DNA from: Salibacteraceae bacterium
GTDB lineage: Bacteria; Bacteroidota; Bacteroidia; Flavobacteriales_G; Salibacteraceae
Reading direction: 5' to 3'
NCBI GenBank assembly: GCA_018401875.1
Contig: JAGYJZ010000001.1
Location: 124,001 to 188,000, forward strand
Length of the DNA: 64,000 bases
A model generated the notes under the pieces. That model had not been told where the DNA came from. It searched no databases and saw only the letters and a list, made by a program, of their open reading frames with translations. Below are positions 19,840 to 25,307 of the stretch, one piece after another. The position numbers and the translations under genes were made by a program. Numbering within the stretch: the first letter of the stretch is position 1; each line of letters opens with the position of its first letter.

Positions 19840-20729
19840 AGCAATTGATTTTTGTACTATTCATTGGGTTTCTTTCATCGGGCTGTTTGAGAATGGACAG
19901 CTTTCTGTACAATCCTGATTATTCAATAGAAGAATATTTATTGGACGAATTTGAAGGAGAAACGGAGATTGTTTTAGATGACTCATATGCACTTCCTGAT
20001 TCACTAAAACATGTATTTACTTTGTCCAGCGATGCCGAGGGAGATATTGCCTCTATTTATGCCGTGTATGTTGGCGATATTTCCAGCATTGCCACCGATA
20101 CGGTGATTCTTTATTTGCACGGAAATGCTGGACATCTCGATTACTATTGGCCGAGGATTAAACTTCTGGCAAATGTGGGCGCGAAGAATAGGTATGGCGT
20201 GTTAGCGATTGACTACCGCGGCTACGGATTGTCAGAAGGCACACCCACTGAAGAAGGCCTTTATTCTGATGCTGATGCAGCTTTAAAATGGTTAAAAGAG
20301 CGCGGATTAACCAACGATCGGCTGGTTATTTATGGATTCAGTATGGGGTCGGCACCGGCCACAGAACTTACTGCCAATGCGCGAAGTATGCAACCTTCAA
20401 AACTGATGCTTGAGGCACCGTTTGCCTCAGATGATGTAATGGTGCAAGACGCAAGTGGGTTATCGTTGCCCGGAAATTATTTCTCAAACCTCGAAATCAA
20501 TAACGCGGAAGAAATCGCAAAAATTGATGAGCCGTTTTTTTGGATTCACGGCAGTGCAGATAGCTTTTTGAGTATTGAAACCCATGGCGAAGTAGTTTAT
20601 AAGAATTACCGTGGAAGCTTTTCAGTCGCGCATAGAGTAGATGGAGGTGAGCACAGTGATGTGCCGTCAGTTATGGGCTATGACGCCTATTCGGATGCCG
20701 TGTTAGAATTCTTGCAGTATTCACCATGA
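19836..20729 (+). CDS. Alpha/beta hydrolase lipoprotein (ABHD13/BEM46-like)
   Basis: A 297-residue hydrolase anchored by a lipobox (SSGC, Cys17). HGNAGH (95-100), DYRGYG (126-131), the nucleophile elbow GFSMGS with Ser169, Asp242 and His273 (GEHSD) give a full triad in the order seen for BEM46/ABHD13 serine hydrolases. The substrate is unknown; an esterase or peptidase working at the periplasmic face is inferred. Coupled to both neighbours by ATGA overlaps (19836..19839 and 20726..20729). Confidence 0.87.
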   Translation: MKQLIFVLFIGFLSSGCLRMDSFLYNPDYSIEEYLLDEFEGETEIVLDDSYALPDSLKHVFTLSSDAEGDIASIYAVYVGDISSIATDTVILYLHGNAGHLDYYWPRIKLLANVGAKNRYGVLAIDYRGYGLSEGTPTEEGLYSDADAALKWLKERGLTNDRLVIYGFSMGSAPATELTANARSMQPSKLMLEAPFASDDVMVQDASGLSLPGNYFSNLEINNAEEIAKIDEPFFWIHGSADSFLSIETHGEVVYKNYRGSFSVAHRVDGGEHSDVPSVMGYDAYSDAVLEFLQYSP

Positions 20730-21958
20730 TACAGCTTATTTATATCGCCATCATCGCAATTACAGTCGTTGACTTTGTAATTGATAAGGTGTTAGACTTC
20801 CTCAATGATCGGGCAAAATCGCCTACAATGCCTCCCGAAGCAGACGGAATATACGATTCAGAACGCTACGCAAAGTGGTTGGCGTATGATAAGGCAAACA
20901 GCAGAGTAGGGGTAATCAGTTCTTCCATCAGCATACTGCTTTCATTGGCCATGTTGATTTTCGGTGGCTTTGGTTGGCTTGATATTAAGTTGAGGCAATT
21001 TACCGAACAACCCGTGTTATTGGCGCTGCTCTATTTTGCAGTTATTGGAATTGCTTCAAGCATTATTTCCTTGCCTTTCAGTGTTTACAACACATTTGTG
21101 ATCGAAGAGAAATTCGGGTTTAATAAAACAACCGTCAAAACCTTCGTCATTGATATCGTCAAAGGAGCAGCTTTGTCTATTGTGATTGGTGCGCCCCTTG
21201 GAGGATTAATTGTGTGGTTGTTTTATGAGCTTGGTGATGCTTTTTGGATTGTTTCGTGGATTATCATGAGCGTGTTTAGCGTTTTCATGACCATGTTTGC
21301 TGCTACCTGGATCATGCCTCTATTCAACAAGTTCACCCCATTAAAAGAAGGTGAGTTGAGAACAGCAATTGAGGTCTATTGTGAAAAGGTAGGGTTTAAA
21401 TTGAACCGACTTTTTGTGATGGATGGGTCAAAACGAAGCGCCAAATCCAACGCCTTTTTTAGCGGATTAGGTCCGAAAAAAACGATAGCACTTTACGATA
21501 CACTCATTGAGCAACAAACAACAGAAGAAATTGTAGCTGTGCTTGCGCACGAGATCGGACATTATAAAAAGCAACACACGCGTCAATCTCTCGTGCTGGG
21601 TGTTTTGCAAACAGGTGCAATGCTCTTTTTATTGGGGATATTTTTAAGAATGCCTGAGTTTTCATTGGCACTGGGTGCCGAACAGATGAGTTTTCATGTT
21701 GGTGTAATAGCCTTCGGTATAATTTTTTCACCCATCAGCACTTTTATTGGCATCGGCATGAACATCCTCAGTCGAAAAAATGAATTTGAGGCCGATGCGT
21801 TTGCGAAAGAGACATATGCTGGCGCTCCATTGGCGTCAGCGTTGAAAAAGCTTACAGCCGAGAATTTGGGTAACTTAAAGCCGCATCCTGCTTATGTGTT
21901 TGTGCATTATTCGCACCCTCCAGTGTTAGAACGGCTCAAGCATTTGAGCGATCGGTAA
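20726..21958 (+). CDS. M48 family metallopeptidase (Ste24/CAAX protease 1-like)
   Basis: A 410-residue integral-membrane zinc protease. Several hydrophobic helices surround the zinc motif HEIGH (His275, Glu276, His279) and the third ligand Glu in NEFEADAFA, the classic Ste24p/CAAX prenyl protease 1 layout. Bacterial members are thought to work in membrane-protein quality control; a prenylated substrate is unlikely. It is the last gene of the fabG-VWA-lipoprotein-hydrolase operon, and its stop codon touches the first hairpin repeat unit at 21958. Confidence 0.92.
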   Translation: MIQLIYIAIIAITVVDFVIDKVLDFLNDRAKSPTMPPEADGIYDSERYAKWLAYDKANSRVGVISSSISILLSLAMLIFGGFGWLDIKLRQFTEQPVLLALLYFAVIGIASSIISLPFSVYNTFVIEEKFGFNKTTVKTFVIDIVKGAALSIVIGAPLGGLIVWLFYELGDAFWIVSWIIMSVFSVFMTMFAATWIMPLFNKFTPLKEGELRTAIEVYCEKVGFKLNRLFVMDGSKRSAKSNAFFSGLGPKKTIALYDTLIEQQTTEEIVAVLAHEIGHYKKQHTRQSLVLGVLQTGAMLFLLGIFLRMPEFSLALGAEQMSFHVGVIAFGIIFSPISTFIGIGMNILSRKNEFEADAFAKETYAGAPLASALKKLTAENLGNLKPHPAYVFVHYSHPPVLERLKHLSDR

Positions 21959-22135
21959 ATGGTTGAAACCATTTCGAAACAAACCATTATGCAACATAGC
22001 CTGCGGTTTAAACCGCAGGCTATGGGTTTTTCGCGTAGGCTGCAAAACCGTTTCAACGGTTTTATAATCAGGGTCATTCCCATCATTTGGTGTTAGGTCG
22101 GATAAATCGGTTGATTGATTACTGAGGGATTGATA
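21958..22135 (+). repeat. 178-bp hairpin repeat unit, copy 1
   Basis: Contains three inverted repeats: 21958-21973 (AATGGTT..AACCATT), a perfect 30-bp palindrome at 21995-22024 (half-site CATAGCCTGCGGTTT), and 22044-22063 (AAAACCGTT-TC-AACGGTTTT). A 70-base tail follows. Compared with copies 2 and 3 the long palindrome carries a matched change on both arms (CCTGCGG/CCGCAGG instead of CCAGCGG/CCGCTGG), so pairing is preserved. It begins at the stop codon of the M48 protease gene. Confidence 0.9.
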
Positions 22136-22242
22136 AATGGTTCAAACCATTCCGAAACCCGTTATCGTGCGCCATAGCCAGCGGTTTAAACCGCTGGCTA
22201 TGGGTTTGTCACGTATGCCTAAAAACCGTTTCAACGGTTTTA
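22136..22242 (+). repeat. Hairpin repeat unit, copy 2 (5' flank of transposase gene)
   Basis: The same three inverted repeats as copy 1: 22136-22151, the 30-bp palindrome at 22173-22202 and 22222-22241. Starts exactly 178 bases after copy 1. The tail of the unit is replaced by the transposase gene, whose start region (22262 onwards) still resembles the beginning of the missing tail. Confidence 0.9.
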
Positions 22243-22270
22243 ATTGTATATTGTATTCAAAATCAGAGCC

Positions 22271-22720
22271 ATGCCACATTCATTTAATAAAATTTGGATC
22301 CATGCAATCTGGGCAACTAAAGAAAGGCGACCATTAATTCATTTGCCAGTTGAGGATAAAATTCATGGATTTATTTCAACACAACTTCGCGAGCAAGGCT
22401 GCCCCGTGAGAATTATCAATGGAATGCCCGATCATATTCATTGTCTATTTTTATTGAATCCTCAAAAATCAATTTCTGAGGTCGTCAAACAAATCAAAGG
22501 AAGCAGCTCACATTTTATTAATCAAAATAGCCTAATTTCTGAGAAGTTTTCTTGGCAAACAGGTTATGCTGCCTACTCTGTTTCTGAATCGATTGTTGAC
22601 AGAGTATTTCAATACATAAAGAATCAGAAACAACACCATCACAAAAAGTCGTTTAATCAAGAGTATGGGGAGTTTTTAAAACTTTATGGGATTGATTTTA
22701 ACCCAAATGCTCTTGATTAA
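22271..22720 (+). CDS. REP-associated (IS200/IS605-like) Y1 transposase
   Basis: A 149-residue HUH single-strand transposase (PF01797, 'REP-associated tyrosine transposase' group). The HUH motif is PDHIHC (His55, His57); the catalytic tyrosine is probably Tyr115 in QYIKNQKQHH. WQTGYAAYSVSES and the end YGEFLKLYGID are typical of Bacteroidetes relatives. An upstream TTG extends the frame, but the family start is ATG 22271. The gene is intact and has copies of the hairpin unit on each side, which are the expected substrates of this enzyme class. No tnpB accessory gene is present. Confidence 0.9.
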   Translation: MPHSFNKIWIHAIWATKERRPLIHLPVEDKIHGFISTQLREQGCPVRIINGMPDHIHCLFLLNPQKSISEVVKQIKGSSSHFINQNSLISEKFSWQTGYAAYSVSESIVDRVFQYIKNQKQHHHKKSFNQEYGEFLKLYGIDFNPNALD

Positions 22721-22753
22721 AATCCGAGTAAGGGCTTTGTTATAAGATTGTTA

Positions 22754-22931
22754 AATGGTTGAAACCATTCCGAAACCCGTTATTGTGCACCATAGCCAGC
22801 GGTTTAAACCGCTGGCTATGGGTTTGTCACGTATGCCTGAAAACCGTTTCAACGGTTTTATAATCAGGGCCATTCCCATCATTCGGTGTTAGGTCGGATA
22901 AATCGGTTGAATGATTATTGAGGGATTGATA
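22754..22931 (+). repeat. 178-bp hairpin repeat unit, copy 3
   Basis: Inverted repeats at 22754-22769, 22791-22820 (perfect 30-bp palindrome, half-site CATAGCCAGCGGTTT) and 22840-22859, followed by the same tail as copy 1 (AATCAGGGCCATTCCCATC...). Copy 4 begins exactly 178 bases later. The 33 bases before it (22721-22753) follow the transposase stop codon. Confidence 0.9.
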
Positions 22932-23000
22932 AATGGTTGAAACCATTGCGAAACCCGTTATCGTGCATCATAGCTAACGGTTTAAATCGCTGGCTATGCG
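22932..23000 (+). repeat. Hairpin repeat unit, copy 4 (partial, decayed)
   Basis: Keeps the first inverted repeat (22932-22947) and a damaged version of the long palindrome (22969-22998), with mismatches CTAACGG versus CGCTGG. The third hairpin and tail are missing. Bases 23001-23106 show no further repeat or gene. Confidence 0.8.
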
Positions 23001-23106
23001 TGTTTTGTGTTGGTTAGAGAAGCTAAACAGACCAATTTTATATCATCTTTCAAAACTTCTTTAAAAATATCTGACCCTCAGACTTTTAATTCAACAAAAG
23101 AACTAC

Positions 23107-23204: not shown

Positions 23205-25307
23205 ATGGCCGAAAAAAAAGAAACCCCAGCTCCAAAAGCTGAGAAAAAGCCCGCTGCTAAAGCTACTCCAGCAAAGAAAGCAGCCCCTAAAAAAGCTACA
23301 GCAAAAGAGGAAACAACGGAAGAAGCTCCTGAAGTTATTGCTGAAGCAACTGCAGAAGAAACCGTTAAGAAGCCTGCAAGGACAAGAAAAGCAGTAGCAA
23401 AACCTGAAGTTGAAGAAGAAGCAAGCGCTGATGAGGTAGTGGAAGAAGCTGCACTAGTAGAAGAAGCTGCTCCAGTTCAAACGAGAGAAGAGCGTTTAGC
23501 TGATCTTGAAAGTGCACGTCAGTCATTTGATTGGACCAAGCTTAACAAGAAAAGCGAGGTGTATTCAGCAGATGAGCGCAACGTGATGGAGGAAGAGTAC
23601 AATGCTACCCTTACTTCAATTAACGAGCACGAAGTGCTAGACGGTACAGTTGTATCGATGACAAAGCGCGAAGTAGTCGTGAACATCGGTTACAAGAGTG
23701 AAGGCGTTATCCCTACCACAGAATTCAGACACAAGCCAGACCTTAAAGAAGGCGATGTGGTTGAAGTGTACGTTGAAATGACGGAAGACGCTGAAGGACA
23801 ATTGGTTCTTTCTCACAAAAAAGCCCGTATGACGCGCGCTTGGGAGAATGTAAACCTTGCAAAAGAAAATGACACCATCGTTACAGGTCATGTTAAATGT
23901 CGCACAAAAGGTGGACTTATCGTTGATGTGTTTGGTCTTGAGGCATTCTTGCCAGGATCACAGATCGATGTGAAGCCAATCCGCGATTACGATGTGTACG
24001 TTGGAAAGAATATGGAATTCAAAGTGGTGAAAATCAACCACGAATTCAAAAACGTAGTAGTTTCTCACAAAGCACTTATCGAAGCTGAAATCGAGCAGCA
24101 GAAAGTGGAGATAATGCAGAAATTAGAGAAAGGACAAGTATTGGAAGGTACTGTTAAGAACATCACATCATACGGTGTATTCATCGACCTTGGTGGAGTT
24201 GATGGTCTTATCCACATTACTGACCTTAGCTGGGGTCGAATTAACCATCCTGAGGAAGTGGTTGAGCTTGATCAAACCATCAACGTGGTTATCCTTGACT
24301 TTGATGACGAGAAGAAGAGAATCGCTCTTGGTGTGAAGCAATTAGAGGCACACCCATGGGATTCATTGAGCACAGAGCTTAAAGAAGGCGATACCATTAA
24401 GGGTAAAGTAGTTGTTTTGGCTGATTACGGTGCTTTTGTTGAAGTAGCTGCAGGTGTAGAAGGATTGATTCACGTTTCAGAAATGAGCTGGTCACAACAC
24501 TTACGCACTGCTGATCAATTCTTCAAAGTAGGCGATGAGGTAGAAGCAAAAGTGATTGCTATAGACCGTGAAGAGCGCAAGCTTTCATTGAGTACCCGTC
24601 AACTTACTCCAGATCCATGGGAGAATATCGAAAGCCGTTTCCCAGTTCAAAGCAGCCACAAAGGCCGCGTTACAAACTTATCGAGCTTCGGTGTGTTTGT
24701 TGAGTTGGTTGAAGGAATCGATGGTCTTATCCATATTTCTGACCTTTCTTGGAGCAAGAAAATCAACCATCCATCTGAATTTACTAAGGTAGGTGAAGAT
24801 ATGGAGGTTATGGTTCTTGAAATCGATAAAGAGAACAGAAGATTAAGCCTTGGCCATAAGCAATTGGAAGAGAATCCATGGGATGTATTTGAAACCGTCT
24901 TCACGATAGGTTCAATTCACCAAGGAACCATCACTTCGCGAAATGACAAGGGTGGTGTAGTAAATCTTCCTTACGGTGTTGAAGGATTCGCTCCAAGCCG
25001 TCATTTGATGAAAGAAGACGGATCTAAAGCAGCCAGCGAAGAGATGTTAGACTTCGAGATCATTGAATTCAACAAAGATTCAAAGAAGATCATCGTATCG
25101 CATACCAAAACATTTGAAACCGATATGGATGCAAGTGTAGGCGGTGGTGATAAGAAGAAGAAGGCACCTTCTGCGAAAGGAAAAACCGACAACAAAGCGA
25201 TCAAGAAGATCAACGAGTCACAAGAGAAAACAACACTTGGTGATTTAGGCGTTCTTTCTGATTTAAAAGAAGAAATGGAGCAGGCTGAGAAAAAGTCTAA
25301 GAAATAA
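23205..25307 (+). CDS. rpsA: 30S ribosomal protein S1
   Basis: A 700-residue ribosomal protein that binds mRNA on the 30S subunit. Six S1 (OB-fold) domains can be seen, starting near residues 145, 225, 312, 398, 485 and 573. Repeats 3-5 carry the canonical pattern GxV..I..YGVFIDLGGVDGLIH..DLSW. Residues 1 to about 105 form a low-complexity Ala/Lys/Glu/Pro extension (AEKKETPAPKAEKKPAAK onwards), and a Lys-rich tail closes the protein. Such an extension is common in this phylum, where Shine-Dalgarno pairing is little used. Monocistronic: own -7 box and terminator. Confidence 0.97.
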   Translation: MAEKKETPAPKAEKKPAAKATPAKKAAPKKATAKEETTEEAPEVIAEATAEETVKKPARTRKAVAKPEVEEEASADEVVEEAALVEEAAPVQTREERLADLESARQSFDWTKLNKKSEVYSADERNVMEEEYNATLTSINEHEVLDGTVVSMTKREVVVNIGYKSEGVIPTTEFRHKPDLKEGDVVEVYVEMTEDAEGQLVLSHKKARMTRAWENVNLAKENDTIVTGHVKCRTKGGLIVDVFGLEAFLPGSQIDVKPIRDYDVYVGKNMEFKVVKINHEFKNVVVSHKALIEAEIEQQKVEIMQKLEKGQVLEGTVKNITSYGVFIDLGGVDGLIHITDLSWGRINHPEEVVELDQTINVVILDFDDEKKRIALGVKQLEAHPWDSLSTELKEGDTIKGKVVVLADYGAFVEVAAGVEGLIHVSEMSWSQHLRTADQFFKVGDEVEAKVIAIDREERKLSLSTRQLTPDPWENIESRFPVQSSHKGRVTNLSSFGVFVELVEGIDGLIHISDLSWSKKINHPSEFTKVGEDMEVMVLEIDKENRRLSLGHKQLEENPWDVFETVFTIGSIHQGTITSRNDKGGVVNLPYGVEGFAPSRHLMKEDGSKAASEEMLDFEIIEFNKDSKKIIVSHTKTFETDMDASVGGGDKKKKAPSAKGKTDNKAIKKINESQEKTTLGDLGVLSDLKEEMEQAEKKSKK

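Follow-up and report, generated by a model that had tools for sequence, protein, structure and literature searches.

Do the hairpin repeats around a bacterial transposase gene belong to the transposase, and how did they come to stand there? We addressed this question in a stretch of 64,000 nucleotides (nt; here the window) from a Salibacteraceae bacterium (assembly GCA_018401875.1, contig JAGYJZ010000001.1, positions 124,001 to 188,000), in which tnpA, a gene for a Y1 transposase of the HUH type, lies in an array of repeats between an M48 peptidase gene and an S1-domain gene. The initial annotation, made from the sequence alone, described four copies of a 178-bp unit with three inverted repeats and took them for possible derivatives of a repetitive extragenic palindrome (REP)-associated tyrosine transposase (RAYT). 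Here we report that tnpA, of TnpA(Y1) subclass 1.2, is probably bracketed by a cognate, precisely bounded block of three hairpins (H1-H2-H3), which resembles the REP doublets known as REPINs and forms arrays that carry copied gene ends. The system is real and well bounded; the initial annotation had the right objects and the wrong enzyme class, and was probably also wrong about the origin of the unit's tail.

The hairpin block and its association with tnpA

A full block is about 100-108 nt long and, in the window, consists of H1 (of the AATGGTTNAAACCATT type), H2 (a perfect palindrome of 30-32 nt) and H3 (AACCGTTTCAACGGTT). Folded as single-stranded DNA, blocks 1, 2 and 3 had z scores of -8.0, -7.7 and -6.9, with no equally stable sequence among 200 shuffles of each; the spacer (z +0.6) folded no better than shuffled DNA. 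H2 differs between blocks 1 and 2 by a paired change (CCTGCGG..CCGCAGG versus CCAGCGG..CCGCTGG) that leaves the palindrome intact. The block also holds an inverted pair, since H1 and the reverse complement of H3 have the same base at 12 of 16 positions (counted by eye). No GTAG was seen by eye beside H1, H2 or H3 of the window blocks. An Rfam search with the block returned 11 matches up to an E value of 1, none reaching its gathering score (best bit score 25.4 against a cut-off of 60; nearest to its own cut-off, 23.5 against 37).

The relatives of tnpA considered here are the best 80 of 562 loci, with 52-81% identity (L and G numbers are our handles for loci and genomes). At least one H1-, H2- or H3-like feature was present within 1 kb in 77 of the 80, a permissive count made with no control. 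In a controlled comparison with other genes on the same contigs (arms of at least 12, one mismatch allowed), an inverted repeat was found within 250 nt upstream of 44/78 tnpA loci and 3/193 control genes, and within 250 nt downstream of 27/77 and 6/193, respectively. In an even sample of 395 genomes of the phylum, arms of at least 10 flanked 11/18 tnpA loci on either side, compared with 14/191 controls; the matches of at least 12 at L166-L168 of this sample are a different, A+T-rich palindrome. The claim that repeats and transposase belong together is supported: throughout Bacteroidota this block is found beside this gene, blocks away from any tnpA are dispersed in other genomes, and relatives have empty sites.

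The borders of the block are sharp. Among 62 non-identical blocks from 56 loci, A immediately precedes 61 and T immediately follows 61, and outside these edges conservation nearly ends (at most 0.37 bit); some genomes contributed several blocks, and the search pattern fixed the interiors of H1 and H3 and left the edges free. An H2 core lay as far upstream as expected in 54 of 81 loci; in these, the H2 arms outside the core paired at 0.736 (mean of 500 column shuffles 0.595, maximum 0.632), with many paired substitutions; column shuffles leave shared ancestry in place, and the loci span many genera. Paired changes were seen in H1 and H3, too. Perfect palindromes that alter both arms together, as in window blocks 1 and 2 and in the two blocks of L029, provide a naturally occurring record of how hairpins are corrected or selected.

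Blocks also occur away from tnpA, dispersed in some genomes, among them G061 and several of Roseivirga. The strict full-block pattern was searched in 38 of the 80 locus genomes and was present in 17, with up to 13 copies per genome (G061, a metagenome-assembled genome and the source of L047, 13; R. seohaensis, 6; R. echinicomitans, 5; G070, 4) and none for a reversed-pattern control. Eleven of the 13 blocks of G061 lie away from tnpA and two beside it (L131); for the other loci tested in G061, G044, G050, G467 and G070, the flanks searched (0.1-1.5 kb on each side) contained no tnpA homolog. A similarity search of 19 genomes of the R. echinicomitans genus group gave matches in four, with 11 covering the block in G467. 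Of 40 blocks examined, those of L112 and L152 are beside tnpA, and none of the other 38 lies inside an open reading frame (ORF) of at least 90 aa; in 28 of the 37 blocks away from tnpA with a known neighbour, the H1 side faces the 3' end of a gene. Some loci of the 38-block set overlap or hold two blocks, and not all are independent.

Several of the dispersed copies have features of their own. L136 and L197 have orthologous right flanks (94.6% over 900 nt) and different block spacers. Two identical blocks of R. echinicomitans (L120 and L124, G044:C49:280814 and 282187) lie 1.4 kb apart and have about 160 nt of right flank in common at 95%, with little left flank. At L103 (G061:C33), the block adjoins what by eye is an apparent fragment of a classical IS200-type transposase gene, which had no match to the window TnpA at an E value of 1e-3. 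Most of the G061 copies L115, L119, L123, L127-L130, L132 and L133 share longer extensions, to one side or to both, in which small hairpins lie close to the ends; these copies are possibly a larger miniature inverted-repeat transposable element (MITE).

The array and its empty sites

The M48 gene and the S1-domain gene mark the insertion site of the array (Table 1). The M48 stop codon (TAA, 21956-21958) shares the first two bases of block 1. A direct repeat of 256 nt (21950-22205 and 22746-23001, 88% identity) spans much of the array, spacers are 70-71 nt long, and the tail is present after blocks 1 and 3 only, so that the array consists of two full 178-bp units, one head before tnpA and one truncated head. 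The unit starts first given (21958/22136 and 22754/22932) are borne out, with exactly 178 in both pairs, and copies 2 and 3 do enclose an intact HUH/Y1 gene. Three of the four triple-hairpin copies are complete (21957, 22135 and 22753); the fourth (22931) has no H3 and three mismatches in H2.

Table 1. Features of the array and of its two host genes, in window coordinates
Feature	Position	Strand	Basis
M48 (CAAX-type) peptidase gene, upstream host gene	20726..21958	+	Pfam Peptidase_M48_N 1.1e-53, Peptidase_M48 2.6e-35
Block 1: H1 from 21957; H2 palindrome 21995-22024, T/A at variable pair; H3 22044-22063	21957..22064	+	sequence, folding
Spacer ('tail') 1, unstructured; probably a decayed copy of an M48 gene 3' end	22065..22134	+	alignment, folding
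Block 2: H1; H2 22172-22203, A/T at variable pair; H3 22222-22241	22135..22242	+	sequence, folding
tnpA, 149-aa Y1 HUH transposase, subclass 1.2 motifs	22271..22720	+	Pfam, NCBIfam, motifs, relatives
Block 3: H1; H2 22790-22821; H3 22840-22859	22753..22860	+	sequence, folding
Spacer ('tail') 2; 95% identity to spacer 1 (74-nt query)	22861..22930	+	alignment
Block 4, truncated: H1 and degenerate H2 (22969-22998, 3 mismatches), without H3	22931..~23013	+	sequence
S1-domain gene (ribosomal protein S1-like), downstream host gene	23205..25307	+	Pfam S1 2.7e-80

Eleven of 12 other genomes of the same genus contain the M48 gene, and its end was readable in ten (not in L149). It is followed by homology to the S1-gene region in six of them (L138, L139, L140, L141, L142 and L148) and by another gene in the other four. 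The array of about 1.1 kb is absent in all six that keep the gene pair, and thus the empty sites that the initial annotation had named as a test are present. The window aligns with L139 up to 21924 and again from 23063, with 1138 nt in the window and 55 nt in L139 between these points; in L138 this place is filled by a different sequence of about 460 nt. No block-like or H2-like match was found in the M48 loci L138-L151. Given these empty M48-S1 sites, the array is most simply read as an insertion in the window lineage.

The transposase

The window TnpA matched Pfam Y1_Tnp (2e-28) and contains the motifs DHIH, WQ and YIKNQKQHH; its ATG at 22271 is in register with those of the relatives. It scored 73.4 with the NCBIfam model transpos_IS200 (cut-off 55) and 35.7 bits with REP_Tyr_transpos, the RAYT model (cut-off 80). 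The closest solved structures are IS200/IS605-type transposases, namely 2xm3 (4.8e-10), which we take to be ISDra2, and ISHp608 (2a6m, 1.3e-6). Regular expressions located DH[IVL]H in 72 of the 80 relatives (one DHLH), WQ in 69 and Y..xQ..HH in 62; 14 of the 80 reading frames, cut by a contig end, a frameshift or a stop, fall below 130 aa. A close relative (E at most 1e-40) was present in 19 of the 395 genomes of the phylum sample, in each as a single copy; G041, a genome outside this sample, has at least two tnpA genes (L024 and another beside L112).

In the account of TnpA(Y1) subclass 1.2 consulted from Quentin et al. (2018; PMC6006769), its members have DH[IV]H, WQ and Y---Q--HH, about 148 aa, a low copy number and hosts in Bacteroidetes, are generally devoid of IS200 terminal structures, and are entered as 'no' for REP. 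Judged by its motifs, the window transposase belongs to this subclass and is not a RAYT, and its copy number is likewise low. The palindromes that flank tnpA far above control depart from the description of the subclass; the assignment by motif stands, because the absence of REP is part of that description and not a sequence criterion. A RAYT was rejected on the REP_Tyr_transpos score and on the Y..NQ..HH motif in place of the NP type, and with it the 'RAYT-like enzyme' of the initial annotation. Several nearly identical copies with a single subterminal hairpin at each end, the hallmark of IS200/IS605 subclass 1.1, were not found.

Copied gene ends and the origin of the tail

At seven other loci (L047, L029, L032, L157, L030, L037 and L024), the 3' end of a gene is copied in a spacer or flank. 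In L047, the spacer between the tandem blocks duplicates the last part of the histidine-biosynthesis gene that lies upstream (79 nt at 95%; 68/72 in a cross-locus test), and at L032 the end of a methylmalonyl-CoA mutase gene appears again after the downstream block (55/60). The copies are identical at 76/90 positions in L029, 54/60 in L157 and 54/69 in L030; the SBF-like gene end of L037 (69/105) is a weaker case. Copies of an Eco57I-type methylase end lie 3' of tnpA in L029, L030, L157 and, shorter and weaker, L024, and in translation each of the four scored higher against the methylase end of L021 or L024 than all of its 500 shuffles. The fragments owe their family names to these translated matches, the full-length genes to Pfam. 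The methylase end is present three times in L157, and in L029 it is followed by another block and a second, cut tnpA.

In L029 and L030, a methylase fragment also lies ahead of the first block, outside any full-length methylase ORF, and for this reason appears to travel with the block; in-place deletion of the methylase is a possible alternative. Altogether, tnpA follows the 3' end or a fragment of an Eco57I-type methylase gene in five genomes (L021, L024, L029, L030 and L157), with a diverged copy after tnpA in four.

The cross-locus test could be applied to 67 of 97 loci (two of the 18 phylum-sample loci fell outside the 97 by the motif filter). Nine loci scored at least 30, above the null (next highest 28) when five cross-locus null matches of methylase ends were set aside; in three of the nine (L017, L064 and L078) the matching sequence is a repeated array spacer or flank of unexplained origin, not an identified gene end. 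L024 is outside the top 20 because the 110 nt ahead of its first block are not methylase end.

These copies make a gene-end origin plausible for the tail of the window, too. In one reading frame, the tail encodes HSHH(L/S)VLGRINRL(I/N)DY and a stop, compared with YSHPPVLERLKHLSDR and a stop at the M48 end. At the DNA level the two tails scored 14 and 16 against the M48 end of the window (p = 0.0035 and 0.0015, shuffles), and this end surpassed all 11 M48 ends of relatives (at most 12). With a profile of the relatives' M48 ends, the two tails ranked 1-2 among about 4800 control peptides, at E values of only 0.23 and 0.6. A DNA search of 35 genomes of the family found no donor, with only the two window copies standing out (next E 0.01). 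We consider it likely, not proven, that the tail is a decayed copy of the end of the neighbouring M48 gene; a short stretch after H3 could come from the tnpA leader.

The initial annotation had aligned the tail with the transposase start and had proposed that the 178-bp unit is an internally deleted MITE. The similarity is not significant (local scores 13 and 14; p = 0.15 and 0.07, 2000 dinucleotide shuffles), so that the tail as a tnpA remnant is not supported for the window, and the M48 gene end fits better. Elsewhere in the family such fragments occur: the dispersed copies L127 and L129 of G061 have 27 nt of the transposase start at 92.6% (E ~1e-5) after H3, and L115, L132 and L133 have weaker matches of 14-17 nt at this position. 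Deletion derivatives of the tnpA element may therefore exist in the family, not demonstrably in the window.

Proposed mechanism and alternative explanations

IS200/IS605 and TnpAREP enzymes act on single-stranded hairpins, nick with a tyrosine and move one defined strand. For the window system we infer a comparable course. The block would be exposed as a single strand, probably on the lagging-strand template; TnpA would recognise its hairpins, nick via the tyrosine and join the ends; and the block-bearing single-stranded DNA would be excised and would insert anew, always in one orientation and mostly downstream of genes. Arrays would grow by repeated insertion or duplication of the upstream gene 3' end together with the block, which would leave gene-end copies between blocks. 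The oriented, extragenic placement facing gene ends and the kept hairpins fit a single-strand action of TnpA. The sharp A/T borders suggest cleavage at the block edges; the copied flanks suggest cleavage outside them.

A bolder version, to which we give little credence, is that subclass-1.2 TnpA moves the hairpin block with a captured 60-90-nt copy of the last gene end, the Eco57I-type methylase ends serving as a shared, travelling landing pad. Insertion at stop codons with a brought or duplicated gene 3' end would allow gene ends to be entered without breakage, and such a capture unit, if true, would be the equivalent, among hairpin transposons, of the integrases directed at gene 3' ends.

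Several results weigh against the view of the block as a cognate, mobile partner of tnpA. In the 2.62-Mb, 82%-complete assembly of the window's own genome there are no block copies outside the array and no further H2-like palindromes (up to 3 mismatches), so that the further genomic copies expected by the initial annotation are missing and, with no dispersed copies, its 'active or recently active' system is not supported for this genome. The strict block was present in three of the 395 phylum genomes (two with tnpA; G148 without a close tnpA match), compared with 19 for tnpA; at most tnpA there, the palindromes are thus of another kind or degenerate. At the Roseivirga loci L116 and L104, which were examined for blocks without tnpA, no clean empty site was found; their right flanks have orthologs in G467, and their left flanks gave no clean alignment. 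No cleavage motif was identified. The M48-tail scores of 14 and 16 are modest, being equalled by 3/439 and 1/439 control gene ends, the looser cross-locus null gives about 0.07 for the score of 16, and the window array is outside the top 20 of the cross-locus test. Finally, ordinary slippage could yield tandem duplications with no part for the transposase, and is a serious rival for array growth.

Extended to the whole locus, this last explanation becomes a plain tandem array, formed by slippage or unequal recombination beside a vertically inherited, domesticated tnpA with no present role for the transposase. Every own-genome copy in one array speaks for it, as do the single tnpA copy in 19/19 positive phylum genomes, its recurrence behind one and the same gene end in several Flavobacterium loci, and the flank duplications of L047 and L029, which resemble tandem duplications. 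We nevertheless regard it as rather unlikely in view of the blocks away from tnpA elsewhere, the strong association of tnpA with palindromes, the covariation, and the methylase-end fragments before the first blocks of L029 and L030, which lie outside a full-length methylase ORF. The model of the initial annotation, in which internal deletion made the 178-bp unit a MITE with a tail fused from remnants of the two ends of the element, can draw on the short AATCAG.GCCAT.CC similarity between the tail and the region over the tnpA start codon and on the transposase-start fragments of G061; since the window match is not significant, most of the tail is in frame with the M48 gene end, and tnpA sits between complete blocks and not within one, we hold it to be quite unlikely. 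Least probable, and by our estimate very unlikely, are blocks that are chiefly elements of the 3' untranslated region (transcription terminators or mRNA stabilisers) under selection, with a secondary transposase. Block 1 does begin at the M48 stop codon, and the positions of the blocks away from tnpA, outside ORFs and mostly after gene 3' ends, would suit such a role; against it, relatives lack the block at the orthologous gene end, palindromes are commoner beside tnpA than beside other genes on these contigs, and no Rfam family comes near its gathering score. A subclass-1.2 tnpA with a cognate block thus remains the likely explanation.

Relation to known systems

The window enzyme is like TnpA(Y1) subclass 1.2 (PMC6006769, as far as consulted) in its motifs, length of about 148 aa, low copy number and Bacteroidetes host, and differs from the subclass as described there in the three-hairpin block that flanks the gene and is dispersed in other genomes. 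With the REPIN/RAYT systems (class 2 TnpAREP; PMC3116915, in the part seen) it has in common a low-copy Y1 gene and extragenic hairpin repeats with an inverted pair. In contrast to these systems, the enzyme has no NP-type Y motif and is below the NCBIfam RAYT cut-off, and the block has no GTAG tag, a third, long central palindrome and few copies. The REPIN trait of two inverted hairpins in a dispersed extragenic unit was seen in relatives, not in the window's own genome. The sequence of TnpA is related to solved IS200/IS605-type transposases; unlike the IS200/IS605 insertion sequences (subclass 1.1, with IS608 and ISDra2), tnpA is not multicopy, whole three-hairpin blocks lie on both sides of it, and tnpB is not among its two neighbouring genes. 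REPtrons and TIRtrons (PMC3733652, 2013, sections consulted) are also transposase genes decorated by repeats, possibly with a dispersed family too; their repeats are GTAG-tagged or have GGGGWSAS motifs.

In the portions of the open-licence literature searched, no published description of the Bacteroidetes block was found. The block is a likely substrate for a branch of Y1 transposases for which the survey, in the parts seen, found none (PMC6006769), which makes the function of the subclass-1.2 branch testable. The REPIN theme thereby gains, in Bacteroidota, a third hairpin and an unusual tie to copied gene ends.

Other homologues in the same genome

Besides its one close tnpA, the window's genome contains two distant homologues (37-40% identity), both with Y..NQ..HH. 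The second tnpA (L009, C31:200092-200523; YIANQEEHH, 40% identity) has a distinct palindrome of its own, ACCCCTTCGGGGTT, all five own-genome matches of which (up to one mismatch) lie beside this gene, at C31:199865-200568. The third homologue (L010, C23:161834-162274; YVLNQKTHH) is preceded by other short palindromes, GACCCCAGCGGGGTC and GACTCCAGAGGAGTCC. The block set of the window and the ACCCCTTCGGGGTT set were each found at one tnpA only, and so both stay beside their transposases in this genome.

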